Part shown: in pieces, positions 1 through 64,000 of the stretch
How the letters are laid out: each line of letters opens with the position of its first letter
Numbering within the stretch: the first letter of the stretch is position 1
Source of the DNA: Microbacterium sp. NC79
Lineage (GTDB): Bacteria > Actinomycetota > Actinomycetes > Actinomycetales > Microbacteriaceae
Reading direction: 5' to 3'
DNA length: 64,000 nucleotides
Assembly (NCBI RefSeq): GCF_019061125.1
Contig: NZ_JAHQYI010000001.1
Location: forward strand, 1,798,001-1,862,000
Notes under the pieces: model-generated
What the model was told of the DNA's origin: nothing
Databases searched by the model: none
What the model saw: the letters and a program-made list of their open reading frames with translations, nothing else
Program-made: the position numbers and the translations under genes

Positions 1-28
1 CCGCAGCGGTGATTTCAGGACCTTCCAA
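1..28 (-). CDS. pnp: Polyribonucleotide nucleotidyltransferase, N-terminal 9 codons only (runs off left edge)
   Basis: Seen: a TTG codon at 28-26 on the minus strand follows a good Shine-Dalgarno (AGGAGAG, about 40-35). It opens a frame reading MEGPEITAA before the window ends. Actinobacterial PNPases characteristically begin MEGPEI followed by an alanine-rich stretch. The gene usually follows rpsO, which here is the nearest ribosomal gene on the same strand (5775-6044), so family and context agree. PNPase is the 3'-5' phosphorolytic exoribonuclease of mRNA decay. Only nine residues are visible, so the call rests on the start motif, the ribosome binding site and synteny. Unusually, about 5.7 kb of unrelated genes separate it from rpsO. 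Confidence 0.6.
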
Positions 29-368
29 GAGGTCTCTCCTTCTTTGTTTTGACTCGCGCCTCCGTGTGAGGAGCGAGTTTCGTGAAGGAGCGGAACAGCA
101 GAAAAGAGCGTGCATCATCGATGCGAGCCGCTAATGCTGGCCACCAGTAGAAGACCACTCGGCGATCTGACGAGGAACCCACCACAGGGGACCAGCTTTC
201 TGCCCAGTCCGCTCCGCTGATATTTAGTTGTCAGCTCATCGCAGATGAACCTTCATGATGCTATCAGTCGCGCCTGACAATCTGCGGTTTCTGGTCCGAT
301 CAGGCAGAAGCGAGACGGCTTGGGGCCGGAACCTGGTGTCCCTCAGCGCGCGCCGGTATGCTGACCGC
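29..368 (-). promoter_or_regulatory. Leader and promoter region of pnp, shared with the DUF5302 promoter
   Basis: This 340-base gap holds no supported gene. On the minus strand it would be the long 5' leader of pnp. It contains a stem (arms 52-61 and 69-78, 9 of 10 pairs) shortly upstream of the pnp start, as expected for a PNPase leader that is processed and autoregulated in other bacteria; that role is inference here. On the plus strand a TATGCT -10 box at 357-362 lies six bases before the ATG of the DUF5302 gene. One GGAACC motif occurs near 174 and another near 326. Confidence 0.4.
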
Positions 369-533
369 ATGTCTGACAATAATGAGGATATGAAGGCGAA
401 GTTCCGTGAGGCACTTGCCAAGAAGAACGCCCAGGCGCGCACCGGCGAAGCGCACGAAGACGCCCGCGGCGCCGTGACAGGCACGCATGACGTTGCTAAC
501 CACAAGCGCGAGTTCCGCCGTAAGAGCGGATGA
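369..533 (+). CDS. DUF5302 family small protein
   Basis: A 54-residue acidic/basic, hydrophilic protein beginning MSDNNEDMKAKFREAL and ending in a lysine/arginine-rich tail. This matches the small actinobacterial DUF5302 family, whose function is unknown. The ATG at 369 is preferred over upstream in-frame codons because a TATGCT -10 hexamer ends six bases before it, the leaderless arrangement seen at many genes here, and because the family starts at this methionine. It has no membrane segment or cysteine. It stands alone, followed by a strong hairpin terminator. Confidence 0.75.
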   Translation: MSDNNEDMKAKFREALAKKNAQARTGEAHEDARGAVTGTHDVANHKREFRRKSG

Positions 534-562
534 AACCATCCGCGTATGCGGAGAACAGCATT

Positions 563-596
563 GAAGGGGTGCGATCCACACGGATCGCACCCCTTC
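563..596. terminator. Bidirectional hairpin terminator
   Basis: Perfect 15-bp stem (arms 563-577 and 582-596, loop of 4) between the converging DUF5302 gene and the membrane protein gene. It can serve both transcripts, although there is no long T-run. Confidence 0.75.
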
Positions 597-610
597 GTCG
601 TTGCGGCCGG

Positions 611-1063
611 CTATGCAGCGGTCGGAACCGGGGCTGCGGCTCGGCGAACCGCTCGCGTTACCCAGATGATGAGCAGTGCCAGGAGGGCAACGTCGGTGGC
701 GATGTACACGTAGTGCAGCACGGATTCACCCGGGTCTCCCCCGGCAATAATGATGTCGCTGCGCGCCGTGAGTGGCGGGCGCACGATGAAGGTCTGTGTG
801 GCCAGGACCACCCAGATGAGGGCCAGGTTGATGATGTCGCCGCGCGTGATGCCGCGCAGACTGACGAGTGTCGTGGAGATCAGGAGCGTCCAGCCAGCAA
901 TGGCCATCGCAACGAACGTCAGCCGGCCAATACCCAGGCCGAGTGGCGTCGTAATGCCTGGTGCCTGGAACTTGAGGATTGGTTCTATAAACGACAGCGC
1001 AATGATCATGCCGAGCCACAGCGTCGGGATCATGATGCGCCACAGCGAAAGCATGCGGGTCAT
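611..1063 (-). CDS. Small integral membrane protein, unknown function
   Basis: 150 residues with four probable transmembrane helices (about residues 10-27, 45-65, 78-98 and 118-138) and a short basic C-terminal tail with arginines followed by alanine/proline. I do not recognise a named family. It resembles the small four-helix membrane proteins often annotated as hypothetical in actinobacteria. The ATG at 1063 is preceded by TACGGT ending six bases upstream, suggesting a leaderless transcript. It converges on the DUF5302 gene across a shared terminator, and nothing nearby indicates a role. Confidence 0.65.
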   Translation of the reverse strand: MTRMLSLWRIMIPTLWLGMIIALSFIEPILKFQAPGITTPLGLGIGRLTFVAMAIAGWTLLISTTLVSLRGITRGDIINLALIWVVLATQTFIVRPPLTARSDIIIAGGDPGESVLHYVYIATDVALLALLIIWVTRAVRRAAAPVPTAA

Positions 1064-1175
1064 GATTCAACCGTAGATCGCGCCGAGGTAGGTGGCGCCA
1101 CGTTTCACCGGTTTTATCGCAACGTGCGCCCCCTTGTACCGCCTCCCGCGGTTCGGCTTCTGCGGTTCTGCTTCC

Positions 1176-1252
1176 TTTGGTTCCCTTCCCGCGGTTCCGC
1201 ATGCGCTGGTTCCGCCGTCTCCGCCCCTTGGTTCCGCCTGCCCTGGTTCCAC
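1176..1252. repeat. Cluster of GGTTCC motifs in an intergenic gap
   Basis: Five GGTTCC hexamers occur within about 75 bases, spaced irregularly in pyrimidine-rich sequence between the small membrane protein gene and the FMN reductase gene. The gap (1064-1304) has no supported gene. See the findings on this motif. Confidence 0.7.
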
Positions 1253-1258
1253 GGCAAA

Positions 1259-1290
1259 GGGGCGGGATACCCGAATGGATACCCCGCCCC
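1259..1290 (-). terminator. Hairpin terminator after the flavin-enzyme operon
   Basis: GGGGCGGG at 1259-1266 pairs with CCCGCCCC at 1283-1290, with further partial pairing of the inner bases. It lies just beyond the stop of the FMN reductase gene on the minus strand. Confidence 0.6.
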
Positions 1291-1304
1291 GTGCCGTGTG
1301 AGAG

Positions 1305-1949
1305 CTACTCCCCCGTCAAGCCACCAAGGAGGTGTCCGAACGACTTACCTTCGCCGAGGTAGTTGGCGGGATCAAACGGGTCGCTTGAGCGCACCGGCTC
1401 GTTCGCGGCAATGCGGTCCGCGAGCTCACGAGCACCCTTGTCAATGCGTCGGCCGAGCGGGGCCACGTCATCGGCGTTCGCACCCCAGTCGCTTGATGCG
1501 GCAAAGACACCCGACGACACCGTGTCGGCGTGAAGGTAGGCGAACAACGGACGAATCGCGTAATCGATCGCGAGCGAATGCCGCGCGGTGCCAGCGTTCG
1601 CGCCAATCAGCACCGGCTTACCGGTGAGCGAATCCGGGTCGAGCACGTCGATGAACGACTTAAACAATCCGGAATAGCTCGTCGAGAAGATGGGTGTGAC
1701 CGCGATGATCGCGTCAGCATCGGTCACCTGCTGGATCATCGCTTCCAGCTCCGTGGGCGCGAAGCCGGTGAGCATGTTGTCGGTGATCTGGTGCGCATAG
1801 TCACGCAGCTCAAAGGTCTGTACTTCGCTGTCAATACCGCGCTCGGTGAGCTGGTTCACGGTTGCCGCAGCGAGGCGATCAGCGAGCATGCGGGTTGATG
1901 ACGGGTTGGAGAGTCCTGCCGAAATGACGACAATACGACGAGCGGTCAT
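1305..1949 (-). CDS. CE1759-family NAD(P)H:FMN reductase
   Basis: A 214-residue flavodoxin-fold reductase. The N-terminal strand-loop IVVISAGLSNPSSTRMLADR is the FMN-phosphate-binding loop (about residues 6-24), and a second flavin-contact region lies around IAVTPIFSTSYSGLFK. The family supplies reduced FMN to its partner monooxygenase. The partner lies immediately upstream, with the reductase ATG three bases after the monooxygenase stop, which indicates translational coupling. In actinobacteria these two families (named after Corynebacterium efficiens CE1758 and CE1759) occur as such a duo. Length and order fit; the physiological substrate is unknown. Confidence 0.85.
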   Translation of the reverse strand: MTARRIVVISAGLSNPSSTRMLADRLAAATVNQLTERGIDSEVQTFELRDYAHQITDNMLTGFAPTELEAMIQQVTDADAIIAVTPIFSTSYSGLFKSFIDVLDPDSLTGKPVLIGANAGTARHSLAIDYAIRPLFAYLHADTVSSGVFAASSDWGANADDVAPLGRRIDKGARELADRIAANEPVRSSDPFDPANYLGEGKSFGHLLGGLTGE

Positions 1950-1952
1950 GAT

Positions 1953-3182: not shown

Positions 3183-3201
3183 GCGATCGCTCCTTGCGAT
3201 T

Positions 3202-3219
3202 TATATGCAACTGAATATA
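3202..3219 (-). promoter_or_regulatory. Candidate operator upstream of the flavin-enzyme pair
   Basis: Imperfect palindrome TATATGCA-AC-TGAATATA (7 of 8 pairs per arm) in strikingly AT-rich DNA, 20 bases upstream of the monooxygenase start. Its shape resembles MarR-type operators. The regulator is not encoded next to it. Confidence 0.4.
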
Positions 3220-3306
3220 CATGATGTAACCGCGTCCAAACGAATCTATTCCCGTACCACAGCCACCTCACTTGCATTCCCAGCACAGACCCGTAAATTG
3301 TGCCTC

Positions 3307-5686: not shown

Positions 5687-5711
5687 CCAGGAAGCAGCCC
5701 GGACAAAAAAC

Positions 5712-13672: not shown

Positions 13673-14740
13673 ATGAGTAGCAATGACGCGAATCAGATTC
13701 GTCCCACAAGCCCGTCACAATACGCGGCGGTGGTGGAGCGTCGCCTACCCGTACCCGAGCTCGTCGCGGACCGCGTCTGGGCGATCGCTGCCCCCATGCC
13801 TGCCGGGAAGCTTACTCATACCCTGAGTTACGTCTTGCTCGATGACGATGGGCATTTCCACATCATCGATCCCGGTTGGGATTCCACTGAGAACCTCGCC
13901 TCGCTGCACGAATCTCTCATGCACATTGGGCTCGACTTCACGAACCTGACCACGATCATCGCAACTCACCACCACCCGGATCACCTGGGTATCGCAGAAA
14001 GGCTTCGCCGCGAAACTCATGCCCGACTGATCATGTCGCGTGCGGAAAGCGCGGTGTTGAAGCACCAGGTGAGCCGTGTGTTTCGCGATGCCACCACGTA
14101 TGCGAAACGGCTCGAAGGATGGGGAGTTCCGCAGGCGCGTCGCACTGAGCTCCTCTCCTCATTCGCGCGGTTACCCGACTTCACCGACGTGGCCCCGGAT
14201 GCAGTGGTCGATGATGGCGACGAGATTGTCCTCGGCTCACACCGGTTGCGGGTGCTGGTGTCCCCCGGGCACACGGGGGGCCACCTTTGCCTCATCGACG
14301 ACGAGCGCGCGCTCCTGTACAGCGGCGATCACGTGCTGCCGCAGGTATACGGAGGGATCGGCCTCGGCGCGATGCCCGGCTCGTCGCCGCTTGAGGACTA
14401 CATCACCTCACTTGAGGCGCTGGAGGCATATCACGACTATCAGGCCCTGCCTGGCCACGAATATCGATTCGCGGGAATTCGCGAACGTACTCATCAGATC
14501 GCCGCTCATCACTTGCGCCGCACCCGCGCCATCGTCGCCTTGGCTGATGAGCTCGGCGATGCTCCAATTTGGGAGTTCGCGAAGCGGCTACCGTGGACCG
14601 GCGGCTGGGAAGACCTCGGCGGATTCTTCTTGCACTCCGCGCTCGTCCAAACAGAAATGCACTACGCACTAAGCCAGAGCGGCAATGCCGCTGCCGCGCT
14701 CGAACGCTACCCCGACCCGGAGTACTGCGAAACCACATAG
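13673..14740 (+). CDS. Metallo-beta-lactamase fold hydrolase
   Basis: 355 residues. The zinc-binding motif THHHPDH is at residues 98-104; further ligands are the histidine of SPGHTGGHLC (about 199), the aspartate of LLYSGDHVLP (about 218) and the histidine of LPGHEYRF (about 265). The fold serves many hydrolases; the long helical C-terminal part resembles the glyoxalase-II/MBL proteins with a winged-helix tail (LACTB2-like). It is divergent from the TetR-MFS operon and separated by a palindromic operator, so it may act on the compound that induces the pump; that is inference. Confidence 0.82.
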   Translation: MSSNDANQIRPTSPSQYAAVVERRLPVPELVADRVWAIAAPMPAGKLTHTLSYVLLDDDGHFHIIDPGWDSTENLASLHESLMHIGLDFTNLTTIIATHHHPDHLGIAERLRRETHARLIMSRAESAVLKHQVSRVFRDATTYAKRLEGWGVPQARRTELLSSFARLPDFTDVAPDAVVDDGDEIVLGSHRLRVLVSPGHTGGHLCLIDDERALLYSGDHVLPQVYGGIGLGAMPGSSPLEDYITSLEALEAYHDYQALPGHEYRFAGIRERTHQIAAHHLRRTRAIVALADELGDAPIWEFAKRLPWTGGWEDLGGFFLHSALVQTEMHYALSQSGNAAAALERYPDPEYCETT

Positions 14741-14785
14741 CGTGACGAGCGCCATGGGACGGCTGAGCGAGCCGCTCTGACGCAA

Positions 14786-14824
14786 AACGGAACCATAGGT
14801 GCGGTTTGCACTCATGGTTCCGTT
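14786..14824. terminator. Terminator-like hairpin made from an inverted GGAACC pair
   Basis: AACGGAACCAT (14786-14796) pairs perfectly with ATGGTTCCGTT (14814-14824), between the converging metallo-beta-lactamase and aspA genes. The stem is formed by two inverted copies of the motif that is abundant throughout the window. Confidence 0.7.
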
Positions 14825-14864
14825 CGCGAGGTGCCGAGGTCGAGGACTCGGGCTGGAGCTCGTG

Positions 14865-16337
14865 TTACTTCTGGACGTCGTCGCCCGAGATGATGTTCTC
14901 CGCAGGCTGGACAACCGGAACTGCTGCTGTGATCGTCTCGAGACCTGACAGGCGTGCCGGCGAGATCTGCTTCATGACTTCTTCACGCGACATCAGGCCA
15001 GCTTCCACAACAAGATCGGCGATGTTGTGGCCGGTCATCAGCGCGGTCTTCGCCAGCGCTGCCGCCGAGGAGTAGCCAATGAACGGCGTCAACGCGGTGA
15101 CAACGCCGACAGACGAACCAACCATGGCACCCAGGCGCTCGCGGTTCGCGGTGATGCCGTCAACGCAATTGACGCGCAGCGTCCACATTGCTTGGCGCAT
15201 CCAGGTGATCGACTGGAAGATCGAGTGTGCGATGACCGGTTCGAAGGCGTTGAGCTGAAGTTGCCCACCTTCGACAGCCATGGTCACCGTCACGTCGGCA
15301 CCGGCGACCGCAAAGGCCACCTGATTGACGACCTCAGGGATGACCGGGTTGACCTTTCCTGGCATGATCGAAGAGCCAGCCTGACGAGCAGGCAGGTTGA
15401 TCTCACCAAGGCCCGCCTGGGGGCCAGAAGACAGCAGGCGCAGGTCGTTGCAGATCTTCGAGAGCTTGATGGCATTGCGCTTGAGTGATGCCGAGAACGA
15501 CATGAATGAGCCGGTGTCGCTCGTCGACTCGACGAGGTCGGTGGCCGTCTCCAGGTCAAGCTTGGTGATCTCATTGAGGTGCTTCAACACGACGGCAGCG
15601 TACTGCGGGTGCGCGGTGATACCGGTGCCGATGGCTGTGGCGCCCATGTTGATTTCCGTAAGCAACTTCGCGTTCTCCGACATGCGGCTGTAGTCCTCGC
15701 CGAGTGTCGTCGCGAAGCCGTGAAACTCCTGGCCGAGGGTCATCGGAACCGCATCCTGCAGCTGGGTACGACCCACCTTGAGAATGTCGTGGAACTCGAC
15801 CGCCTTGTCGAGGAAGCTCTTGCGCAAGAGTGCGAGCTCCTCAAGCAGGCTCAGTAGCGTCAGCGACAGCCCGATCTTGATCGCGGTCGGGTAGACGTCG
15901 TTGGTCGACTGGCTACGGTTCGTGTCGTCGATAGGTGAAAGGAAGGCGTAGTCCCCCTTTTCACGCCCAGCCATCTCCAGCGCAATGTTGGTGATGACCT
16001 CGTTCGCGTTCATGTTTGATGAGGTTCCGGCGCCGCCTTGGATGACACCCACCGTGAACTGATCATGAAACTCACCGTCAATCACGCGCTGTGCGGCGGC
16101 GTCGATGAGGTCAGCCTTTTCCTGCGAGAGTGCGCCAATTTCGGCGTTCGCGCGAGCAGAAGCCTGCTTGACCATTGCCAGCCCGCGAACCAGATCGGGG
16201 TAAACCGAGATCGGTCGCTTGGCGATCGGAAAGTTTTCCTGCGCTCGCGCCGTATGAATGCCCCAATAGGCGTCGGCGGGGATCTCCAGGGATCCGAGAG
16301 AATCAGATTCGGTGCGAGTGCGCATCGTTGCGTCCAA
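14865..16337 (-). CDS. aspA: Aspartate ammonia-lyase
   Basis: About 490 residues of the fumarase/aspartase superfamily. The signature GSSIMPGKVNP is intact, preceded by TLGQEFHGF and TGTGITAHPQYA; the start region ESDSLGSLEIPADAYWGIHTAR is typical of aspartases. It converts aspartate to fumarate and ammonia in the cytoplasm. I prefer a TTG start at 16337 because AAGGAAG lies at the right distance. An ATG at 16379 would add 14 residues without homology, and an ATG at 16325 is also possible. A TAGGCT -10-like box lies near 16385. Monocistronic. Confidence 0.9.
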   Translation of the reverse strand: MDATMRTRTESDSLGSLEIPADAYWGIHTARAQENFPIAKRPISVYPDLVRGLAMVKQASARANAEIGALSQEKADLIDAAAQRVIDGEFHDQFTVGVIQGGAGTSSNMNANEVITNIALEMAGREKGDYAFLSPIDDTNRSQSTNDVYPTAIKIGLSLTLLSLLEELALLRKSFLDKAVEFHDILKVGRTQLQDAVPMTLGQEFHGFATTLGEDYSRMSENAKLLTEINMGATAIGTGITAHPQYAAVVLKHLNEITKLDLETATDLVESTSDTGSFMSFSASLKRNAIKLSKICNDLRLLSSGPQAGLGEINLPARQAGSSIMPGKVNPVIPEVVNQVAFAVAGADVTVTMAVEGGQLQLNAFEPVIAHSIFQSITWMRQAMWTLRVNCVDGITANRERLGAMVGSSVGVVTALTPFIGYSSAAALAKTALMTGHNIADLVVEAGLMSREEVMKQISPARLSGLETITAAVPVVQPAENIISGDDVQK

Positions 16338-16450
16338 TGTTGCTTCCTTGTGGGTCGCGGCCAATGTGGGGAGGGTCATTCCAGCCTAGCCCGGTATTGC
16401 CGCCCAAGCCATGTCATATGCGCGCGCTGAGCACTATGAGTGCTTTCCAC

Positions 16451-16491
16451 GCAAAAGTGCCACGGTGTTGAGGACACCGTGGCACTTTTGC
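16451..16491 (-). terminator. Strong hairpin terminator after the phosphate transporter operon
   Basis: Perfect 18-bp stem (16451-16468 with 16474-16491) with a five-base loop and T-rich arm end, immediately after the stop of the small membrane gene on the minus strand. Confidence 0.9.
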
Positions 16492-16499
16492 TGAGTTTC

Positions 16500-16835
16500 T
16501 TAGTGGTTCAGCACGATCAGCCCGATCGCGAAAAGCACCGCTGCCGCGCAGACGGCGAAGCATGCGTACGCCCCAAGAAGAGCCACCTTCTTCTGACCGT
16601 CCGTGAGCGGACTACGCTTGGCAGCCTTCGCGGCCGCCTTGGCAGCACGCTGGCGGTCCTTCTCGGAAATGACGGCGATGGCATCGGTGAACTCTGCAGG
16701 GCCCACCACCGGAGCGCGACCAGCACGCACCAGCAGGCGCAACCCCATGGCGTAGAACGACACCAGCACCGAGGCACCGATGAAGGCAGCGATGAAAACC
16801 TGGAGGAAGGCATCCCAGTCAATGGCGATGTTCAT
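16500..16835 (-). CDS. Small membrane protein co-translated with the phosphate transporter
   Basis: 111 residues with two transmembrane helices (about 10-32 and 84-107) separated by a basic, alanine/lysine-rich cytoplasmic loop (RQRAAKAAAKAAKRS). The ATG overlaps the stop of the PiT gene (ATGA), so the two are translationally coupled. The transporter's own C-terminus is similarly basic and coiled. It may be an accessory subunit of the transporter; I know of no defined function for it. Confidence 0.7.
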   Translation of the reverse strand: MNIAIDWDAFLQVFIAAFIGASVLVSFYAMGLRLLVRAGRAPVVGPAEFTDAIAVISEKDRQRAAKAAAKAAKRSPLTDGQKKVALLGAYACFAVCAAAVLFAIGLIVLNH

Positions 16836-18214
16836 CGTGCGCCTCCGTTTTCGTCGCTCGCGGACGCAGCGTTTTTCTCGGCAGCCTTTTGGGCTGACTT
16901 CTTCGCCTTGCGCTCCAGGTCAATCCGCTCCTTCTCGCGAAGGACATCGGCGGTGTGGTGCTTGTCGATGGCGCGCTTTTCGGCCTTCTTTGCCGCCTTC
17001 TCCGCCTGAAGAATCATGCGCTGACGACGCGTGGGCGGCGGGTTCTTCTTGACCTTAACGGCGGCACCTGAGTCAGCAACTTCGCTCATCGCGTTGTTCG
17101 CGTGAACTTCGTCACGGCGTGAACGCAAGAAGATGCTCAGGATGACACCGACAGCGATGAGCGCGTCGATGACGACGCCCCAGGTGCCGAGCCAAACAAC
17201 GACGAGAGCGGCCAGCGCGCCAACGCCACCGGCAGCCGGAAGAGTCAAGACCCAACCCACCATGATGCGGCCTGCTGTGCCCCAGCGAACCTTGGATCCG
17301 CGACGGCCGAGGCCGGATCCGATGACGGAACCAGAAGCGACCTGGGTGGTTGACAGTGCGAACCCGAGGGCAGACGATGCGAGGATCGTGGCCGACGTGG
17401 ACGACTCCGCAGCGAAGCCCTGCGCAGGCTTGACGTCCGTCAGGCCCTTACCCAGCGTCCGGATGATGCGCCAGCCGCCCATGTAGGTTCCCAGTGCGAT
17501 CGTCAAGGCACACGCGATGATGACCCACAGTTCAGGGTTGTGGTGTTCAGCCGACTGCCATCCGACAGCGATGAGTGCGAGGGTGATGACACCCATCGTC
17601 TTCTGCGCGTCGTTGGTTCCGTGTGCCAGCGCAACGAGGCTCGATGTGAAGATCTGGCCCCAGCGGAAGCCGTCACGACCGTCCGGCTTGCCGTCGTATC
17701 TGCGGGTCATGCCATAGGCGATCTTTGTCACCACAAACGCGATGATTCCTGCGGTCAAAGGCGCGATCAGCGCGGGCAGAACAACCTTCGTAATGACGAT
17801 GCCGAAGTCGATCGCCATGGCGCCTGCACCAACCAGGGTGGCTCCGATGAGACCACCGAACAGTGCATGCGATGAGCTGGACGGCAGGCCAAGCAGCCAG
17901 GTGAGCATATTCCACGTGATGGCACCGATAAGGCCAGCGAAGATAAGCGAGGGGAAGAGCGTCGCGGCATTGTTGCCGGACATAAGAGCCTCTTCCTTGA
18001 TCATGCCGCCGGAAATAGTCTTGGCAACCTCGGTCGAGAGGAAAGCGCCGACCAGGTTGAGAAGAGCGGCGAGAATGACCGCGGTTTTGGGCTTGAGTGC
18101 GCCCGTTGCGATAGGCGTAGCCATCGCATTCGCGGTGTCATGAAATCCGTTAGTGAAATCAAAGAACAGTGCCAGCAGGATGACCAGCACAACAATTAGG
18201 GCTGCGGTTTCCAC
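16832..18214 (-). CDS. pit: Low-affinity inorganic phosphate transporter (PiT family)
   Basis: 460 residues with about ten helices. The PiT signature occurs twice in the inverted-repeat fold: FTNGFHDTANAMATPIATGAL near residue 20-40 and VALAHGTNDAQKTMG near residue 195-210. It imports phosphate with protons or cations, often as a metal-phosphate complex. The C-terminal ~80 residues are highly basic and predicted to be cytoplasmic and coiled (MILQAEKAAKKAEKRA), longer than in E. coli PitA. The start is GTG. A GTTCACC direct repeat lies upstream, suggesting control by phosphate limitation. Confidence 0.9.
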   Translation of the reverse strand: METAALIVVLVILLALFFDFTNGFHDTANAMATPIATGALKPKTAVILAALLNLVGAFLSTEVAKTISGGMIKEEALMSGNNAATLFPSLIFAGLIGAITWNMLTWLLGLPSSSSHALFGGLIGATLVGAGAMAIDFGIVITKVVLPALIAPLTAGIIAFVVTKIAYGMTRRYDGKPDGRDGFRWGQIFTSSLVALAHGTNDAQKTMGVITLALIAVGWQSAEHHNPELWVIIACALTIALGTYMGGWRIIRTLGKGLTDVKPAQGFAAESSTSATILASSALGFALSTTQVASGSVIGSGLGRRGSKVRWGTAGRIMVGWVLTLPAAGGVGALAALVVVWLGTWGVVIDALIAVGVILSIFLRSRRDEVHANNAMSEVADSGAAVKVKKNPPPTRRQRMILQAEKAAKKAEKRAIDKHHTADVLREKERIDLERKAKKSAQKAAEKNAASASDENGGAR

Positions 18215-20722: not shown

Positions 20723-20793
20723 GGTTCCTTGGTTCCGTTGTTCCGTTGTTCCGTTGTTCCGTCGTTCCATGGTTCCGTGGCTCCGTGGTTCCG
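20723..20793. repeat. Tandem array of an 8-base GTTCCGTT-like unit
   Basis: About nine head-to-tail copies of an 8-9 base unit (GTTCCGTT, GTTCCGTC, GTTCCATG, GTTCCGTG, GCTCCGTG). The end copies contain full GGTTCC motifs. It lies in the 417-base gene-free stretch between the oligopeptidase gene and the DUF559 gene. An apparent minus-strand reading frame rich in Asn/Thr/Gly/Arg is only the translated repeat. Confidence 0.9.
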
Positions 20794-21991: not shown

Positions 21992-22009
21992 CTTCCAGCA
22001 GGCTTGCGG

Positions 22010-22075
22010 AACCTGCGGCGCGGAACCAGGTGGCCGAAACAGGAGCCGGAACAAGGGGGCCGGAACCCGGGAGGG
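22010..22075. repeat. GGAACC-rich cluster directly after pfkA
   Basis: Three GGAACC motifs and one GGAACA occur within 60 bases in an irregular pattern of CGGAACC/CCGGAAC. It abuts the pfkA stop codon. No coding potential. The rest of the gap 21746-22075 holds element copy B and a hairpin. Confidence 0.7.
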
Positions 22076-25663: not shown

Positions 25664-27904
25664 TTAGCGAAACGCACGAAGTCGCAGACTGTTGAGCACA
25701 ACAAACACGCTGGAGAACGCCATCGCGGCGCCCGCAAGCATCGGGTTCAACAGCCCGAGTGCCGCCAGCGGGATGGCCGCAACGTTGTATCCGAATGCCC
25801 AAAACAGGTTGCCGCGAATCGTTGACATCGTCTTGCGCGAAAGCCGAATCGCGTCGGCGGCGGCCGACAGCGACTGCCGCACCAACGTGATGTCGCTCGC
25901 ATGCATCGCGGCGTCGGTTCCGCCGCCCATTGCCAACCCCAGGTCGGCGGCCGCAAGAGCGGGTGCGTCATTCACGCCGTCTCCCACCATCGCGACCGAC
26001 TTGCCTGCCGCCTGTGCCGCGCGCACGGCATCGATCTTGCCTTCCGGCGTGACACCAGAGGTGATGTGGGCAATGCCCACCGCGGTCGCCGCGCGCTGCG
26101 CTGCCGCCTCGTTGTCACCCGTGAGCATGCGAACTTCGACGCCAAGCTTCTGCAGCTGCTGCACCGCGAGTGCGCTGTCGTCGCGTACCGCGTCGGCGAC
26201 AAACAGCACGCCTTCGATCGTTTCGGCGTCATCGCTCAGTCGCCCGGCAACGATTGTCGTGGTTCCGGCGGCCCGCACCGCGGCCGCAAGGTTCTCCGGC
26301 AGCGTCTCCAGCTCCCCCGCGTCCAACCGGCGAGCAAAAACGCGCACGCCTTCGACGGTTCCGCTGACGCCGCGGCCGGCAACCGATGTGAAATCGGTGG
26401 CGACCGGAACCTCGGTTGCGGCTGCCACGATCGCTCGCGCAACAGGGTGCTCAGAAGAGGATTCAACCGACGCTACGCTGCTCACGAACGCACCAGTGTC
26501 GACGCCGTCGACGGTGGCAACCGAAACCAGCGTCATGGTTCCGGTGGTGATGGTTCCGGTCTTGTCGGCAAACAGCGTGTCGATGCCTCCGGCCGACTCG
26601 ATGGCTTCTGGCCCAGTGATCAGAATGCCCATTTGGGCGCCACGCCCGGTGCCGACCAAAATCGCGACCGGAGTCGCGAGCCCCAGGGCACACGGGCACG
26701 CAATAATCAGCACGGCCACGGCGGCGGTGAAGCCGGCGGCAACGGAACCATCAAACACCAGCCATGCAATGAGGGTGACGATGGACAGCACAATGACGAC
26801 CGGCACGAAGACGCCCGAGATGCGGTCGGCGAGGCGCTGCACGGCGCTCTTACCGGTCTGCGCTTCTTCCACCAGGCGAGCCATCGCGGCCAGGCGTGTG
26901 TTCTCCCCCACGGCTGTTGCTTCAACGACGAGGCGGCCATCGGTCGCGATCGTGCTGCCTGTCACGAAGGAACCAGCGCTCACGGCGATGGGTTCACTTT
27001 CGCCGGAAAGCATGCTGGCGTCAACCGCGGCGGATCCAGAAACCACGACACCGTCGGTGGCAATCTTCTCGCCGGGGCGCGCGACGAAGCGGTCGCCAAC
27101 CTGAAGGTCATCGATCGGCACGGTGGGGCCGTCGGCCCCGGCGACCGTCGCGAGCGTCACGGCCTTCGCGCCGAGGTTCATCAGGGTACGCAGGGCATCC
27201 CCCGCACGACGCTTCGAGCGATGTTCGATCCAGCGCCCGAGTAGCAGGAAGACGGTGACGCCTGCGGCAACTTCGAAGTAGACGAGCGACGTGGCATCGT
27301 GCACCGGACCAAACAGCACGACGTCGTGCGTCATGCCGATCTCACCCGCTGTACCGAAGAACATCGCCCAGACACTCCAGATCAGCGCGGCAGAGGTGCC
27401 CAGCGTGATGAGAGTGTCCATTGTGGCGGTGAAGTGGCGCGCGTTTTGGAAGGTGGCGCGGTGGAACGGCCAGCCGCCCCACATCACGATCGGCAGGGTC
27501 AGGATCATGGCCATCCACTGCCAGCCCGGGAATTGGAGGGCCGGAACCATGCCGGTTGCGATGACCGGGATAGCAAGAATGGCAGAGACAACGAGCCTGG
27601 TGCCGAGTTTGGTGCGGCCTTCGTCGGTGTGGTCGTGTTCGTCCATGGCGGCAGGCTGAGAGCCCACCGCACGGACGCGTGCGCCGTAACCTGCCGATTC
27701 AACGGCGGCGATGAGGTCATCATCGCTCACGCCGACCGGAATGGAGACCTTGGCTGATTCGGTCGCGAGGTTGACGGCCGCCTGCACACCCGCGACCGAG
27801 GAAAGACGCTTTTCTACCCGAGCCACACAGCTCGCGCAGGTCATTCCCTCGATGTCGAGAGTCGCGGCGCGAAGCTCGTCATCGGTGTGCAGTGCCGTAC
27901 TCAT
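25664..27904 (-). CDS. copA: Copper-exporting P1B-type ATPase
   Basis: 746 residues. One N-terminal heavy-metal-associated domain with GMTCASC (residues 20-26), then P1B membrane helices with the metal-site motif ACPCALGLATP, the phosphorylation site DKTGTITTG, SSSEHPVA (the nucleotide-binding HP motif) and GDGVNDAPAL. The CPC helix and CopZ partner identify Cu(I) export. Overlaps copZ by 4 bases (ATGA). Placed behind a CsoR-type operator upstream of copZ, so it should be induced by copper. Upstream in-frame extension covering copZ in another frame is not used. Confidence 0.95.
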   Translation of the reverse strand: MSTALHTDDELRAATLDIEGMTCASCVARVEKRLSSVAGVQAAVNLATESAKVSIPVGVSDDDLIAAVESAGYGARVRAVGSQPAAMDEHDHTDEGRTKLGTRLVVSAILAIPVIATGMVPALQFPGWQWMAMILTLPIVMWGGWPFHRATFQNARHFTATMDTLITLGTSAALIWSVWAMFFGTAGEIGMTHDVVLFGPVHDATSLVYFEVAAGVTVFLLLGRWIEHRSKRRAGDALRTLMNLGAKAVTLATVAGADGPTVPIDDLQVGDRFVARPGEKIATDGVVVSGSAAVDASMLSGESEPIAVSAGSFVTGSTIATDGRLVVEATAVGENTRLAAMARLVEEAQTGKSAVQRLADRISGVFVPVVIVLSIVTLIAWLVFDGSVAAGFTAAVAVLIIACPCALGLATPVAILVGTGRGAQMGILITGPEAIESAGGIDTLFADKTGTITTGTMTLVSVATVDGVDTGAFVSSVASVESSSEHPVARAIVAAATEVPVATDFTSVAGRGVSGTVEGVRVFARRLDAGELETLPENLAAAVRAAGTTTIVAGRLSDDAETIEGVLFVADAVRDDSALAVQQLQKLGVEVRMLTGDNEAAAQRAATAVGIAHITSGVTPEGKIDAVRAAQAAGKSVAMVGDGVNDAPALAAADLGLAMGGGTDAAMHASDITLVRQSLSAAADAIRLSRKTMSTIRGNLFWAFGYNVAAIPLAALGLLNPMLAGAAMAFSSVFVVLNSLRLRAFR

Positions 27905-28107
27905 GCGCGGCCTGCGAAGGTGTATCCAGCCTCGGCGACAGCCGCGGCCACTGCTTCGTCGCTCACGGCACCCGTCACGGTGACGGTCTTCGCGTCGAGG
28001 TCGACAACCGCGTTTTCCACACCGGCGACGCCGGATACTTCTGTCGTGACCGATCCTGCGCAGTGTCCGCACGTCATGCCTTCAACGCGGTAAACCTGGG
28101 TGGTCAT
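27901..28107 (-). CDS. copZ: Copper chaperone, heavy-metal-associated domain
   Basis: 68 residues, a single ferredoxin-like HMA domain with the copper-binding loop GMTCGHC at about residues 10-16. It delivers Cu(I) to CopA and to a CsoR-type repressor in the cytoplasm. ATG at 28107 has AAGGAGC upstream. First gene of the copZ-copA operon, translationally coupled to copA. The operator ATACCCC-type palindrome lies about 60 bases upstream. Confidence 0.93.
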   Translation of the reverse strand: MTTQVYRVEGMTCGHCAGSVTTEVSGVAGVENAVVDLDAKTVTVTGAVSDEAVAAAVAEAGYTFAGRA

Positions 28108-30603: not shown

Positions 30604-31611
30604 TCACGCAATCGTCAGGTAGTCGGGGCCGGAGTAGTGTCCGGTGGTCATCTTCTGGCGCTGCATCAGCACGTCGTTCAGCAGGCTCGAGGCGCCGAAG
30701 CGGAAAAGGTGCGGAACCAGCCACTCCTCCCCCAGCGTTTCAGCGACGGTCACGACGTACTTGATCGCGTCCTTTGAGGAGCTAATTCCACCGGCCGGCT
30801 TCACGCCAATCTTCTCGCCGGTGAGCTTGTGCCAATCGCGCACGACCTCAAGCATGAGCAACGTCACCGGAAGCGTGGCTGCTGGCTGCACTTTGCCCGT
30901 TGATGTCTTGATAAAGTCGCCGCCTGCGAGAATCGCGAGCCACGAAGCGCGCTTGACGTTGTCGTACGTGTTGAGCTCGCCGGTCTCCAGGATCACCTTG
31001 AGCGACGCGTAGGATCCGTCGTCGCGGCGGCACGCTTCTTTCACCTGCACGATCTGGTCGTACACAAAGGCGTAGTCGCCGGCGAGGAAGGCACCGCGGT
31101 CAATCACCATGTCGATTTCGTCGGCACCGGCGGCAACGGCCTCAGCCGTGTCTGCCAGTTTGATCGCAAGCGATGAGCGGCCGGAGGGGAACGCCGTCGC
31201 TACTGCCGCGACGGAAATCTTGCCGTCGTCGGGGTCGCCGTGCATGGTTCCGAGTGCGGCAACAGCGTGCGGAACCATATCGCCGTACACGCAGACAGCG
31301 GCAGGGCGCGGGCAGGTGGCGTCAGAAGCGTCAGGGTGCAGCGCCTTCGCGACGAGCGAGCGCACCTTGCCGGGGGTATCGGCACCCTCGAGCGTCGTGA
31401 GGTCGATCAGCTCGATGATGCGATCAAGCGCCCACGCCTTTGACGTGGTCTTGATCGAACGGGTGCCGAGGGCAGCGGCGCGCTGCTCGAGGCCGACGGC
31501 GTCGACTCCTGGAAGGCCGTGCAAGAAGCGTCGCAACGCTTCGTTGCTCGGCTCGCCGCCGAGAATTTCGACTGCCCGCGCGCGCAGCGCCAGGTCAGTA
31601 GTGGTGTTCAT
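30604..31611 (-). CDS. deoC: Deoxyribose-phosphate aldolase
   Basis: 335 residues, the longer (human DERA-like) form. Catalytic residues are visible: the aspartate in ADEIDMVID, the Schiff-base lysine in DFIKTSTGK and the proton-relay lysine in IGVKPAGGI. It splits 2-deoxyribose 5-phosphate into glyceraldehyde 3-phosphate and acetaldehyde during deoxynucleoside catabolism. Its start overlaps the SorC-family regulator stop (ATGA). The downstream aldehyde dehydrogenases can remove the acetaldehyde formed. Confidence 0.95.
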   Translation of the reverse strand: MNTTTDLALRARAVEILGGEPSNEALRRFLHGLPGVDAVGLEQRAAALGTRSIKTTSKAWALDRIIELIDLTTLEGADTPGKVRSLVAKALHPDASDATCPRPAAVCVYGDMVPHAVAALGTMHGDPDDGKISVAAVATAFPSGRSSLAIKLADTAEAVAAGADEIDMVIDRGAFLAGDYAFVYDQIVQVKEACRRDDGSYASLKVILETGELNTYDNVKRASWLAILAGGDFIKTSTGKVQPAATLPVTLLMLEVVRDWHKLTGEKIGVKPAGGISSSKDAIKYVVTVAETLGEEWLVPHLFRFGASSLLNDVLMQRQKMTTGHYSGPDYLTIA

Positions 31612-32746: not shown

Positions 32747-32767
32747 GGCGGAGAAGGAGGGGGCCAC

Positions 32768-32866
32768 GGAACCAGGGGGGCGGAACCAGGGCGCGGGTTG
32801 GGAGCGCCCGGAACCAGGGGGCAGGACCAGGAGGCGGGTTGGGAGTGGCCGGAACCAGGCGCTGGG
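32768..32866. repeat. GGAACCAGG-rich imperfect tandem repeat abutting ribF
   Basis: Five GGAACCAGG or GGACCAGG units, several followed by GCGGGTTGGGAG, repeat with a step of roughly 28-43 bases right up to the ribF stop codon. The array contains four full GGAACC motifs; another GGTTCC lies at about 32660. Confidence 0.8.
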
Positions 32867-58697: not shown

Positions 58698-60320
58698 ATG
58701 TCTACCGACACCCCTACTTCGAACCTGCCTCCCGTCCTGCGCCCGGAAAACCCACCGCAGCAGGACCTCGGAGCCTTCGCCGAGCGTTTCGCCATCCGCA
58801 CGATCGGCGACCTTGCCGACCGCACATTCTCCGGGCTGACCTTGGCCACGGCGGATCTGCGCTCAGGCGAGATCTTTGTTGCCATCAACGGCGTGAATGC
58901 GCACGGTGCATCATTCGCTCAGCGTGCCGCCGACACCGGCGCGATCGCTGTCGTGACCGATGAGGCCGGTGCCAGCATTGCCGCACCGAGCGGCCTCCCG
59001 ATTCTCGTCGTGGATGACCCGCGGGCACTTCTCGGCGACATGAGCGCCTGGGTTTACGGTACGGGCGCGGATGACGCATTGCCTGTGCTGTTGGGAACCA
59101 CCGGAACCAATGGCAAGACGAGCGTGTCACACCTGTTGGAGGGGATCCTGCGTCAGCTGGGCGTCACCTCCGGTCTGTCGTCAACCGCCGAACGCCACAT
59201 CGCCGGACAGGTCATCGTGTCACGTTTGACGACACCCGAGGCGAGCGAAATGCATGCACTGCTCGCGCTCATGCGGGAGCGTCACGTTGAAGCTGTCGCC
59301 GTCGAAGTCTCGGCACAAGCGCTCAGCCGCCACCGCGTCGACGGCCTCATGTTCGATGTCGCCGGGTTCACCAACCTCAGCCACGATCACCTCGATGACT
59401 ATGCCGACATGGAGGAGTACTTCGAAGCCAAGCTGGCGCTCTTCCACGCAGATCGCTCACATCGCGGCGTCGTCAGCCTTGACTCCGCGGCCGGAGCCGA
59501 AGTTGTTGCGCGCTCCGAGGTTCCGGTCGTCACCGTCGGCACCCCCCTCATCGCCGCCGACCCCGACGCTGCGCGTGCCGCACACTGGGTTGTCGATATC
59601 GTCGCTGAGCACCAGCAGGGCACGACCTTCACCCTCACGGCACGCGACGGTCGCTCACTGACCACCGTTGTTCCGGTTATTGGGCCACACATGGCGGCGA
59701 ACGCGGGTCTTGCCATCGTGATGCTGTTGGAAGCCGGTTACGACTGGGATCGCATTGTGGCGGCCCTGCAGCGTGACGGCCGCATCACGGCGTACCTCCC
59801 CGGACGCACCGAGCTCGTTTCTGGCACCACCGGCCCCGCCGTCTACGTTGACTTTGGCCACTCCCCCGATGCTTTCGAAAAGACCCTCGCGGCCGTGCGC
59901 CGGGTGACACCCGGCCGTGTGCTTATGCTGTTTGGCGCTGACGGTGACCGCGATGCAACCAAACGTCTCGACATGGGTCGCGCCGGCGTGCTCGGTAGCG
60001 ACATTCTGGTGATCACCGACCATCACCCCCGGTTCGAAGACCCGACGAGCATTCGGGCGACCCTCATTGCAGGTGCCCGGCTTGCACAGCCGGACGCCGA
60101 GATTCATGAGTTCTCACCCCCGGAAGACGCGATCATTGCGGCCGTCGGTATGGTCGGCGAGGGCGACGCGATCCTGTGGGCCGGCCCCGGTCATCAGGAT
60201 TATCGTGACATCCGCGGTGTCCGCACCCCCTACTCGGCCCGCGAGTTGGCGCGACGAGCGTTGCGCGACGCGGGGTGGCCCGTTGGTGAACCCACGTGGC
60301 CCGTCCCCTACCAGGACTAA
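58698..60320 (+). CDS. MurE-like Mur ligase (UDP-MurNAc-dipeptide ligase paralogue)
   Basis: 540 residues, close to MurE length. P-loop GTTGTNGKTSVSHLLE (about 133-148), SRLTTPEASEMHALLALM, VEVSAQALSRHRVDGLMFDVAGFTNLSHDHLD, the carbamoylated-lysine region YFEAKLALFH and the amino-acid-site loop TDHHPRFEDPTS. In ordinary MurE this loop reads DNPR (diaminopimelate) or DNPA-like (lysine); here DHHPRFEDP replaces it, so the added amino acid may differ. It stands alone on the plus strand away from any division-wall cluster, so it is probably a second Mur ligase. Confidence 0.8.
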   Translation: MSTDTPTSNLPPVLRPENPPQQDLGAFAERFAIRTIGDLADRTFSGLTLATADLRSGEIFVAINGVNAHGASFAQRAADTGAIAVVTDEAGASIAAPSGLPILVVDDPRALLGDMSAWVYGTGADDALPVLLGTTGTNGKTSVSHLLEGILRQLGVTSGLSSTAERHIAGQVIVSRLTTPEASEMHALLALMRERHVEAVAVEVSAQALSRHRVDGLMFDVAGFTNLSHDHLDDYADMEEYFEAKLALFHADRSHRGVVSLDSAAGAEVVARSEVPVVTVGTPLIAADPDAARAAHWVVDIVAEHQQGTTFTLTARDGRSLTTVVPVIGPHMAANAGLAIVMLLEAGYDWDRIVAALQRDGRITAYLPGRTELVSGTTGPAVYVDFGHSPDAFEKTLAAVRRVTPGRVLMLFGADGDRDATKRLDMGRAGVLGSDILVITDHHPRFEDPTSIRATLIAGARLAQPDAEIHEFSPPEDAIIAAVGMVGEGDAILWAGPGHQDYRDIRGVRTPYSARELARRALRDAGWPVGEPTWPVPYQD

Positions 60321-60348
60321 CGCTGGCTACGGCTCGGCAGGCCAGGCG

Positions 60349-61434: not shown

Positions 61435-61461
61435 GTCGCCCACCCTACGCGGCTGAGGCGA

Positions 61462-62436
61462 CTACTGCGCGGACGGCGTTGCCGTTGCGAGGATGTCGAC
61501 GACGAAGATCAGCGTTTCTTTCGCGAGCTCGTGGTCTGGGTTGGCACCGTATCCTGCGGCAGGCGGAACCACCACGAGAACCTGCGAACCGACCTTGTAG
61601 CCCTCGAGAGCCTGCTTGAAGCCCTCAACGACGCCGGTCGTCGGGAAGGACGTCGGCACAGCGCCTCGGCTCCACGAGCTGTCAAACTCGGTACCGTCAG
61701 ACCACTTGACGCCCATGTACTGGACGGTGACCGTGTCACCGGGCGCGACGACGTCGCCGTCGCCCTCCTTCAGCGTGGCAAGCTTCACCTCGGTGGGAGC
61801 GTCGCCTTCGGGAACAGTGACCGTCGGCGTGCCGTCTTCAGCGAGCGTGACGATCGGCATGCCCTCAACGGCAGGCTGTGCTTCGCCCCATGCCGTGGTC
61901 GGGGTAATGCCCTGAATGTCGAAAATCCAGATGTATGCGGGGCGATCAGTGCTTGCCGGCGTGGTGACCGCGATGCGCGATCCGACCGTCGCGCAGCTAA
62001 TAGCCTGCGCCATGCCGGTTTCGGCAACGATCGACTGCAGGATCGGGTCGCTCGTCCAGCCAGCCTCTGCGATCTTCTCGCCCGTTGAGGCGTCGAAAAT
62101 CGTCTGAGCAACGTCAACGAGCTGACCGTATTTGATCTGCTCGCCGTCACCCTCGACAGTGACCACACGTTCAATGTCGGCGACCTCGAGCGGTGCCGTG
62201 AACGTTACCGTCGGCTCCTTCGAGATGTCGGTGTCTACCGTGACTGCTTCGATCGCCGGACCGCTCTCGTAGGCCGCACCACACAGATCGGTGGCGGGAT
62301 CAACAGCGGTCGATTCGCCTCCGGCCGAGGTCTCCGTCGGCGTCGGAGTGGGGTTGCCACCTGACGATGAGCAACCGGCAAGGGCCAGAGCTGAGATCAG
62401 CAGAGTGGGAGCGATGAGGGAGAGTCGAGCGCGCAC
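61462..62436 (-). CDS. FKBP-type peptidyl-prolyl isomerase lipoprotein
   Basis: 324 residues. Signal peptide with lipobox LAGC (cysteine about residue 22), Ser/Thr/Pro linker, a degenerate first FKBP-like domain (about 60-190) and a canonical C-terminal FKBP domain (VTVQYMGVKWSDGTEFDSSWSRG, GFKQALEGYKVGSQVLVVVPPAAGYG). It should fold proteins outside the membrane. GTG at 62436 has AAAGGA six bases upstream; the longer frame is rejected. Paralogous in domain to the cytoplasmic FKBP at 8727-9095. Confidence 0.92.
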   Translation of the reverse strand: MRARLSLIAPTLLISALALAGCSSSGGNPTPTPTETSAGGESTAVDPATDLCGAAYESGPAIEAVTVDTDISKEPTVTFTAPLEVADIERVVTVEGDGEQIKYGQLVDVAQTIFDASTGEKIAEAGWTSDPILQSIVAETGMAQAISCATVGSRIAVTTPASTDRPAYIWIFDIQGITPTTAWGEAQPAVEGMPIVTLAEDGTPTVTVPEGDAPTEVKLATLKEGDGDVVAPGDTVTVQYMGVKWSDGTEFDSSWSRGAVPTSFPTTGVVEGFKQALEGYKVGSQVLVVVPPAAGYGANPDHELAKETLIFVVDILATATPSAQ

Positions 62437-62574
62437 GGGTTTCCTTTGCAAGACAGACGAAACCACTATTGTGTCGTATACGGCTATGCCTCGCCTGAGA
62501 GAATGTCGTGGTCAGCCAGACACCGTCACACCCGCATGCCCGAGGCGGCATGCGGCGCGTAGTAAACTCGCTTA

Positions 62575-63345
62575 GTGACTTCTGACGAGCAGGAACCCGA
62601 ATCGACTCCCACTCCGTCGAAGAACCGCCCGACTTTCATGTACTGGTTCGGTCGCGCCATTCTTACGCCGCTGGCCCGCTTCATCTACCGCCCGCGCATT
62701 GAGGGCAAAGACAACGTTCCGCTGACGGGCCCGGTCATCTTCGCGAGTAACCACCTGTCGTTCATCGACTCGATCGCCATTCCGGTGGTTGCTCCTCGTC
62801 CCGCACACTTCCTCGCGAAGTCCACGTACTTCGAAGGCACCGGCTTCAAAGGCTGGGCGCAGCGTTCGTTCTTCACCTCAATCGGCGCCATTGGTGTGCG
62901 CCGCGGCGCTGGTCAGGCCGCGCTCGACGCGCTTGATCAGCAGCGGCAGCTCCTGGAAGAAGGCCGCGCCGTCGCACTGTACCCGGAGGGCACACGCTCG
63001 CTGGATGGCCGCCTGTACAAGGGCCGCACTGGTGCCGCGTTCTTGGCGCTACAGACCGGAGCCCTCGTGGTTCCCGTCGGACTGATCGGCACCGACAAGG
63101 TCATGCCCAAGGGCGCCAAGATGCCCTCGCTGAAGGAACGCATCACGGTGAAGTTCGGCGAGCCGCTTGATCTCTCATCTCATGGCCCCGCGACCAGCGG
63201 TAAAGCGCGTCGTACGGCAACGGACGAGATCATGGCGGCCATTCACGCCCTGTCAGGTCAGGAGTTGGCTAACCAGTTCAACGAGGTTCCTGCAGCAACA
63301 CCGATCGAACGTATCAAGCAGGTTCTCCCCCACGAGCGCCGATAG
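62575..63345 (+). CDS. plsC: 1-acyl-sn-glycerol-3-phosphate acyltransferase
   Basis: 256 residues. The acyltransferase motif NHLSFID (HxxxxD, about residues 58-64) and the glycerol-phosphate-binding PEGTRS (about 141-146) are intact; an N-terminal hydrophobic segment anchors it to the membrane. It converts lysophosphatidate to phosphatidate. GTG at 62575 is preceded by TAAACT at leaderless spacing. Followed by a 25-bp tandem repeat. Confidence 0.92.
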   Translation: MTSDEQEPESTPTPSKNRPTFMYWFGRAILTPLARFIYRPRIEGKDNVPLTGPVIFASNHLSFIDSIAIPVVAPRPAHFLAKSTYFEGTGFKGWAQRSFFTSIGAIGVRRGAGQAALDALDQQRQLLEEGRAVALYPEGTRSLDGRLYKGRTGAAFLALQTGALVVPVGLIGTDKVMPKGAKMPSLKERITVKFGEPLDLSSHGPATSGKARRTATDEIMAAIHALSGQELANQFNEVPAATPIERIKQVLPHERR

Positions 63346-63376
63346 GCGCACGCGGAGCCAGCCGTTCCGCGGCAGC

Positions 63377-63463
63377 GTCAGCCGACGACTCGCACGACTG
63401 AGTCAGCCGACGGCCTGCACGACTAAGTCAGCCAACGACTCGCACGACCGAGTCAGCCGACGG
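63377..63463. repeat. 25-bp tandem repeat, 3.5 copies
   Basis: Units begin GTCAGCCGACG and end CGACTGA/CGACCGA; complete copies at 63377-63401, 63402-63426 and 63427-63451, then a half copy to 63463. Second and third differ by several substitutions. The last half copy forms the stop and last codons of the minus-strand osmC-like gene. Confidence 0.92.
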
Positions 63464-63917
63464 TGACGGTTGGTACGTGACGCACCGGAAAGTTCACGCT
63501 TGACGCGATGAAGCACCATTCATTGGCGTCGTGATGCGCTGCGATGGCATCGCCAATCATGGATTCGTCGGCAACCGTCACACGCGGATGCAGCACCACT
63601 TCGCTGAAGTGACCACCGTTGCCCTCTTGCACCATGGTTCCGGTTGCTTCATCGCGATAGCTGGTGACCACGACGCCTCGTGTCACGCACGCGTGGAGAT
63701 AGCTCAGCAGGTGGCATTCGGCGAGCGCCGAGATGAGCAGGTCTTCTGGATTCCATTTCGCACTGTCGCCGCGGAACGGGCGATCTGCGGAAGCGAGGAC
63801 ATCGGGCTTGCCTGCGACTTCGAGGGTGACGCTACGCGCATAGTCACGGTAGCCGCTCGTGCCTGACCCGCTGTTGCCCGTCCAGGTTGCCGTTACTGCG
63901 TAGTGGTGCTCAGCCAT
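63453..63917 (-). CDS. OsmC/Ohr-family protein
   Basis: 154 residues. The two redox-active cysteines of the family are present in LISALAECHLLSYLHACV (about residues 68-70) and in NEWCFIASSVNFPV (about 134). N-terminal YAVTATWTGNSGSGTSGYRDY matches OsmC-like peroxidases rather than Ohr. It reduces organic hydroperoxides. The gene's 3' end is the last half-unit of a tandem repeat, suggesting its stop arose by repeat expansion; only the last ~4 residues are affected. Confidence 0.85.
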   Translation of the reverse strand: MAEHHYAVTATWTGNSGSGTSGYRDYARSVTLEVAGKPDVLASADRPFRGDSAKWNPEDLLISALAECHLLSYLHACVTRGVVVTSYRDEATGTMVQEGNGGHFSEVVLHPRVTVADESMIGDAIAAHHDANEWCFIASSVNFPVRHVPTVTVG

Positions 63918-63957
63918 GCGCCTAGTTTGGCACGACGCGCGCGTTAGGCTTGATGTC

Positions 63958-64000
63958 GTGTCTGAAACTTTTGCCGTAACCGAAGCTGTTGAACTTGCCG
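63958..64000 (+). CDS. Start of an unidentified gene (runs off right edge)
   Basis: GTG at 63958 follows TTAGGCT at leaderless spacing and opens a frame of 14 codons (VSETFAVTEAVELA) before the window ends. Divergent from osmC. Too short to name. Confidence 0.45.
   Translation, partial: MSETFAVTEAVELA

Follow-up and report, generated by a model that had tools for sequence, protein, structure and literature searches.

The octamer CGGAACCA in the window and in the genome

The genome of Microbacterium sp. NC79 (G000) comprises 2,861,126 bases in 3 contigs. The stretch analysed here, called the window, is 64,000 bases of it (C1:1798001-1862000) and is rich in a short word, CGGAACCA. An earlier note on this DNA had reported the hexamer GGAACC/GGTTCC as over-represented with about 149 copies (80 + 69), and the program count of 153 (80 GGAACC and 73 GGTTCC) agreed with this. 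Expected were 33, 40 and 56 copies under Markov models of order 1, 2 and 3, respectively, and 91 under the maximal-order model. With all four models the hexamer ranked first in the window. It was preceded by C (position −1) in 113 of the 153 copies and followed by A (position +6) in 86, and the 7-mer core CGGAACC/GGTTCCG was found 58 + 55 = 113 times. The composition of the flanks therefore defines the unit as CGGAACCA with the core CGGAACC. The enrichment described in the note was real, and its unit is a 7-8-mer, CGGAACC(A), rather than GGAACC.

The sites in the window and their special arrangements are the following, where non-coding refers to our own gene calls and ORF to an open reading frame:

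1..64000, both strands: 67 exact CGGAACCA/TGGTTCCG sites, of which 37 are forward (+) and 30 reverse (−), with a mean spacing of some 955 bases
530..1627: ORF without Pfam match, overlapping the next cluster
1193..1236, minus strand: clustered sites, one with the core only (1193) and two full (1207, 1229), non-coding
14788..14822: inverted pair (14788 +, 14815 −) in the convergent gap between the ORFs 13673-14740 (+) and 14865-16379 (−)
20730..20793, minus strand: degenerate tandem array GGTTCCGTTGTTCCGTTGTTCCG..., containing the full word at 20730, 20770 and 20786, non-coding
22007..22067, plus strand: degenerate cluster of the CGGAACC core (22007, 22021, 22061), non-coding
26536..26558, minus strand: two sites 15 bases apart within the P-type ATPase ORF 25664-28072 (−)
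31245..31277: inverted pair (31245 −, 31270 +) within the ORF 30604-31611 (−)
32767..32857, plus strand: degenerate array with four CGGAACCA (32767, 32781, 32809, 32850), non-coding
59094..59114, plus strand: P-loop GTTGTNG of the Mur-ligase ORF 58698-60320, with GGAACC at 59094 and a full CGGAACCA at 59102

The P-loop had been cited as an example of two copies within a gene. The codons GGA ACC ACC GGA ACC AAT GGC at 59094-59114 indeed encode GTTGTNG and contain two GGAACC hexamers; only the one at 59102 is a full CGGAACCA, and the one at 59094 is GGAACC alone. Further degenerate tandem arrays, apparently intergenic, were seen in the stretches L009 (15933-16167) and L012 (5487-5681). Some of the arrays in the window, L009 and L012 have GGGGCGG-like spacers and may be motif sinks or a separate repeat family.

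In the whole genome, CGGAACCA was found 1268 times forward and 1249 times reverse, 2,517 copies in total, and both orientations are used equally. The reversed word, taken as a control, occurred 40 + 35 = 75 times. In a sample of 804 kb (28% of the genome), 710 copies were observed and 54.4 expected (order 3), so that the third-order Markov check proposed in the earlier note did not bring the ratio near 1. CGGAACCA was the top 8-mer of this sample, and the nine 8-mers ranked just below it were all overlaps or an end variant of it. Among the single-mismatch neighbours, clear excess was confined to the two ends: at the last base T was 5.3-fold, G 3.1-fold and C 2.1-fold in excess, at the first base T 4.1-fold and G 1.9-fold, and interior neighbours reached at most 1.9-fold. 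The abundant octamer is a certain feature of this genome.

Codon use and composition do not account for CGGAACCA

The gene calls were made with a simple codon-score caller, which gave 609 ORFs, assigned 84% of the DNA to coding sequence and is bound to overlook some genes. By these calls, 516 sites were coding (7.6 per 10 kb) and 194 non-coding (15.5 per 10 kb). When the codons were shuffled synonymously within genes (n=40), 41.2±6.5 coding sites remained, with a maximum of 57. For the non-coding DNA, 6.7-11.2 sites were expected, so that intergenic DNA is enriched for the word as well and the second refutation named in the earlier note fails too. Part of the non-coding count comes from degenerate clusters: of 39 direct pairs in which the 7-mer core is repeated closely, 32 were intergenic.

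Codon pairs, base composition or mutational bias could produce a frequent word, and most coding sites indeed fall into few frames: Gly-Thr 178, Gly-Ser 151, Val-Pro 129, Glu-Pro 42 and others 16. Against this stand the loss of all but about 41 of the 516 coding sites upon synonymous shuffling, the density in non-coding DNA, which is twice that in coding DNA, and the 363 of 366 Microbacterium genomes in which CGGAACCA is not enriched. Such a bias is hardly credible as the origin of the word. The Markov excess and the shuffle rule out codon or composition bias as the cause, which the earlier note had called a possible explanation that leaves the intergenic clusters unaccounted for.

The sites are conserved within a small clade

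Among the 366 Microbacterium genomes compared, three were enriched for CGGAACCA, namely G000 (2517 copies), G154 (2917) and G354 (2372), whereas the others have 34-213. Outside the family but within the order, 23 genomes had 54-389 copies, similar to the reversed controls. The three genomes form one clade on a tree of ProRS (Shimodaira-Hasegawa-like approximate likelihood ratio test, SH-aLRT, 100). Their ProRS sequences are 94-98% identical and the next one is 82% identical (58 genomes searched).

Within this clade the sites were preserved. From G000 to G154, 31 of 48 sites were kept (all 8-mers 22.6%, permuted words 23.0%), and from G000 to G354 16 of 16 (all 8-mers 39.3%, permuted words 35.9%). 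In the other directions 32 of 44 and 16 of 23 were kept, and 17 of 24 from G354 to G154. In the outgroups G143 and G001, CGGAACCA was present at 0 of 19 and 0 of 21 aligned sites. The outgroup states were mostly 2-3 mismatches away and showed mixed types of substitution including transversions, which argues against one mutational route.

The sites lie at low-cost places

In gaps of up to 400 bases, 38 sites were found in 6.9 kb between convergent genes, 36 in 20.1 kb between tandem genes and 10 in 9.5 kb between divergent genes, the least dense class. Identity to the sister genome G154 was 0.80 within 50 bases of the sites and 0.864 beyond 1.2 kb. The window genes without outgroup alignment had 27 sites in 21.6 kb, those with outgroup alignment 22 in 33.9 kb. 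The amino acids under the sites were kept in 28 of 31 and 31 of 40 cases in two outgroups, with a background of 79% in each, and thus at much the same rate as in other places. Sites were rarer in strongly constrained and commoner in weakly constrained sequence. The word settles at low-cost places, which are faster-evolving DNA and the gaps between convergent genes.

The density in genes also differed with GC, from 0.30 sites per kb in the lowest decile to 1.0 in the top quartile. The stretches L109 and L124 contain about 14 and 16 kb, respectively, that are free of sites, with a GC of 0.56-0.59 in the 2-kb bins there. The site-free genes of L109 encode glycosyltransferases, polysaccharide pyruvyl transferases and an ABC protein, and those of L124 are restriction-like defence genes. 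A defence island of this genome contains a C5 methyltransferase. For this depletion, Pfam annotation covered three stretches: L109 and L124, which have the lowest density, and L110, which has the highest. L111 and L121, also of low density, lay outside this set.

If an abundant nucleoid protein or regulator bound to CGGAACCA, the word would be non-polar, genome-wide and conserved, as it is. The short gaps that bear divergent promoters are, on the other hand, the least dense, the word is absent from the two low-GC islands and it differs between relatives of one genus, which makes such a role rather improbable.

The strand of CGGAACCA had no relation to the GC skew of the stretch: in 38 stretches, 350 sites were on the G-rich strand and 360 on the other. 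The skew is weak in this genome, and within this limit a polar motif is unsupported, as the earlier note had argued from the near-equal orientations. This bears on the idea that the word is a recombination hotspot like Chi, recognised by a nuclease of the AddAB or AdnAB type. Chi words have 5-8 bases, are enriched and are concentrated in the core genome. An excess of about 12-fold over the codon shuffle and an excess in convergent gaps are not known as traits of Chi. RecC (PF04257) was found in 0 of 43 genomes, with the E. coli control detected, so that a Chi of the RecBCD type is unsupported. Chi is thus disfavoured by the absent RecC and the absent polarity, and we regard a hotspot of this kind as improbable to much the same degree as the protein-binding site. 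A general role as terminator was also ruled out, since only 5 of 37 close inverted pairs form a stem.

Related words replace each other in other Microbacterium genomes

A second word, CGGCATCC, was found with at least 1,500 copies in 291 of 366 genomes and with at least 2,000 in 263 (hand counts). In G058, for example, 2033 + 2042 copies were counted against 76 + 90 of the reversed word. The three CGGAACCA genomes have 254-322 copies of CGGCATCC. A third word, CGGATCCG, is palindromic and contains GGATCC. It has more than 1,000 sites in 22 of 366 genomes (G074, G098, G197 and 19 others), all of which are low in CGGCATCC (242-1029). The dialect words exclude one another between genomes. Read on one strand, GCATCCG, GGATCCG and GGTTCCG, the core of the window, form a chain of single changes.

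On the ProRS tree, a quick search with a single gene of 56 genomes, the dialect labels were clustered, with 9 changes versus 26.9 when shuffled. G161 was left out, its best match being a fragment of 32% identity. The dialects follow the phylogeny, with CGGATCCG at no fewer than two places on this single-gene tree, as if it had arisen more than once. In eleven of the tree's genomes the scoring gave none of the three words; for five it drew on 80 kb each, where mainly codon-type words were found, and for the rest on 20 kb or on counts.

The two other words also exceeded synonymous shuffles. For CGGCATCC, 119 versus 28.2 sites were found in G143, 76 versus 25.3 in G001 and 243 versus 55.8 in 13 named loci, and for CGGATCCG 60 versus 4.8 in four genomes. 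The stretches L179 (G113) and L190 (G361) consist entirely of N and contributed nothing. Of the CGGCATCC sites of G143, 0 of 58 were kept in G154 (background 13%); the clade that switched has thus erased the old word. Between G143 and G001, 18 of 65 and 18 of 46 were kept (background 20%).

A codon-aware scan covered 48 of 80 named loci with about 20 kb each. By our own count, a word of the CATCC or GATCC type was among the top three in 26 loci, 11 of them outside Microbacterium. These words were CGGCATCC in several Microbacterium, CAGCATCC in Microbacterium sp. MPKO10, CGGATCCG in M. gubbeenense, GGCATCCG in Cryobacterium cheniae, GCATCCGT or CATCCGCT in three other Cryobacterium, CGCATCCG in a Herbiconiux metagenome-assembled genome (MAG) and an Agrococcus, and AGGGATCC in Leucobacter ruminantium. 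In the remaining loci no top word of this type was found within about 20 kb each; these included two Curtobacterium, Nocardioides soli, a Bifidobacterium, two other Herbiconiux, M. maritypicum and three of four Agromyces. Since single loci are small samples, the words beyond the genus are only leads. Other over-represented words appeared with an order-2 model in 17-22 kb, namely TGAGTGGC, GTACGCCG and TCTGCAGA at L092 (Agrococcus), L085 (Nocardioides soli) and L065 (a Micrococcales MAG).

The HIP1 word of cyanobacteria, a palindromic octamer, is very abundant and lineage-specific and occurs both within and outside coding DNA. CGGAACCA resembles it in abundance, lineage specificity and occurrence in both kinds of DNA. 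This invites the explanation that CGGAACCA might be a word of the HIP1 kind, with no assigned function, which a DNA methyltransferase and associated repair would maintain, and that each dialect would reflect a different specificity of the enzyme. The palindromic CGGATCCG with its GGATCC and the C5 methyltransferase of the defence island in this genome would fit. CGGAACCA and CGGCATCC, however, are not palindromic, restriction normally leads to avoidance of a word, and the mixed substitutions in the outgroups, transversions included, are unlike a single mutational route. We consider this explanation unlikely, though less so than a Chi-like hotspot or a protein-binding site.

Competence genes and a possible role in DNA uptake

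The competence proteins that the earlier note had proposed to look for are encoded in the genome. ComEA lies at 17095-17667 of L117 and adjoins ComEC (14625-17273). Two tad-like clusters with T2SSE, T2SSF and TadE proteins are located at about 1.04 Mb (L113) and about 2.08 Mb (L207) of C1. The host thus encodes an uptake machinery of ComEA, ComEC and a type IV filament, as do relatives that lack the motif. At about 14625-14800 of L117, the ComEC frame ends in a low-complexity tail of the PWKAGSAQPLEAGLSS type, which may be a repeat array read in frame.

Because of its abundance, independence of codons, non-polarity, conservation, restriction to a clade, exclusion of other dialects and placement, and because of the com and tad genes, we favour, with modest confidence, the reading that CGGAACCA is a DNA uptake sequence of this Microbacterium clade, with dialects in a Gram-positive family. 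The organism would be competent, and its uptake would be biased by the word, which a putative surface or pilus protein would read. The competence machinery of the clade would prefer CGGAACCA when it binds external DNA, and fragments that bear the word would be taken up and recombined more often. Such biased import, or molecular drive, could spread and keep the word, mainly where it does little harm: at synonymous sites, in variable genes and in the gaps between convergent genes. CGGAACCA would be one of several related words in the Microbacteriaceae (CGGCATCCG, CGGATCCG, TGGTTCCG and others), set apart by a few base changes and serving as dialects. The balance tips only slightly towards the wider proposal that an uptake-sequence system evolved independently in the Microbacteriaceae. 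One genus would then have at least three mutually exclusive dialects, which were switched and lost repeatedly, and a putative receptor would work with Tad-type pili and ComEA/ComEC.

Several observations weigh against a role in uptake. ComEC was found in 360 of 366 genomes, ComEA in 53 of 53 genomes tested, including 11 scored as motif-free, and the pilus ATPases (T2SSE) in 42 of 42. The competence genes therefore do not track the motif, their nearly universal presence is uninformative as a correlate, and the specificity factor would have to be something else. No receptor was singled out among the tad and com proteins, which were compared by presence and identity only. A raised identity beside the sites was looked for against G154 as a footprint of import and the reverse was seen. 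The depletion in acquired DNA concerns two islands chosen for their low density, and six window ORFs with little or no alignment to G154 had 5 sites in 5.6 kb, so that novelty by itself is not equal to depletion. The site density showed no steady trend along codon typicality, and the close inverted pairs rarely extended to a stem. CGGCATCC is less well conserved than CGGAACCA, with 152 of 421 sites kept versus about 108 expected; this is a hand sum over 30 ordered pairs of six named loci, which are not independent and of which several were at or below background. In three M. foliorum phages (L228, L229, L230), the coding CGGCATCC sites numbered 47 versus 18.2±3.4 shuffled, a mild excess of about 2.6-fold. 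Genomes scored as motif-free reached 1.1-2.1-fold CGGCATCC over the shuffle, and part of any excess of the phage type is therefore sequence context. The phage Min1 (L227) had no excess (4 versus 5.0 shuffled). Avoidance of CGGCATCC by phages, as a sign of restriction, was not seen in any of the four. The uptake sequences that the earlier note had raised as a lead, beside methylation targets, gained support from the dialects, the weakly constrained placement and the com and tad genes; ComEC and ComEA are present regardless of the motif.

Comparison with known systems

The DNA uptake sequence (DUS) of the Neisseriaceae and its dialects (Frye et al. 2013, PMC3630211) resemble the present case, as described there, in the thousands of copies of a short word and in dialects that differ by few bases and are distributed with the phylogeny. 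CGGAACCA is unrelated to DUS in sequence, has 8 instead of 10-12 bases and occurs in a Gram-positive host. It forms few inverted pairs with a stem (5/37), no ComP receptor was identified, and uptake is inferred here. Unlike the Pasteurellaceae, the Microbacterium host has no outer membrane. The uptake signal sequence (USS) of that family, which is explained by molecular drive in the accounts of PMC7811141 and PMC12616744, has a similar density and is likewise under-represented in strongly constrained coding sequence. CGGAACCA has no strong flank beyond the 8-mer such as the AT tracts of USS.

Among actinobacteria, Micrococcus luteus has comEA and comEC and, according to PMC6370729, PMC4322843 and PMC8467076, needs Flp/Tad pili for transformation. 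Microbacterium sp. NC79 is similar in being an actinobacterium with comEA, comEC and tad clusters, but M. luteus is known to be competent, whereas competence is inferred here. The term 'uptake sequence' does not occur in the main text of PMC4322843 and PMC8467076. A search of 5.39 million open papers, with subscription papers and preprints outside its scope, gave no paper that describes these words, or any uptake sequence, for Microbacterium or the Microbacteriaceae. Pasteurellaceae and Neisseriaceae are both Gram-negative. They are the two families named in 2020 for a strong preference for an uptake word (PMC7811141).

If the reading as an uptake sequence is true, the Gram-positive case would be new, and uptake biased by sequence would be possible without an outer membrane. 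With several hundred sequenced species, the genus would then offer ready-made switches and losses of dialects for a search for the receptor by co-variation, and adding the matching word to DNA intended for Microbacterium would be suggested. If the word does not serve uptake, there is still no explanation for a motif that is present in thousands of copies across the genus and changes between dialects.

Two other kinds of words were seen in the 804-kb sample. The words G10, G11 and G12 occurred 20, 18 and 16 times, which corresponds to about two runs of roughly 19 G, and words of the GGGGGAG type were likewise over-represented.

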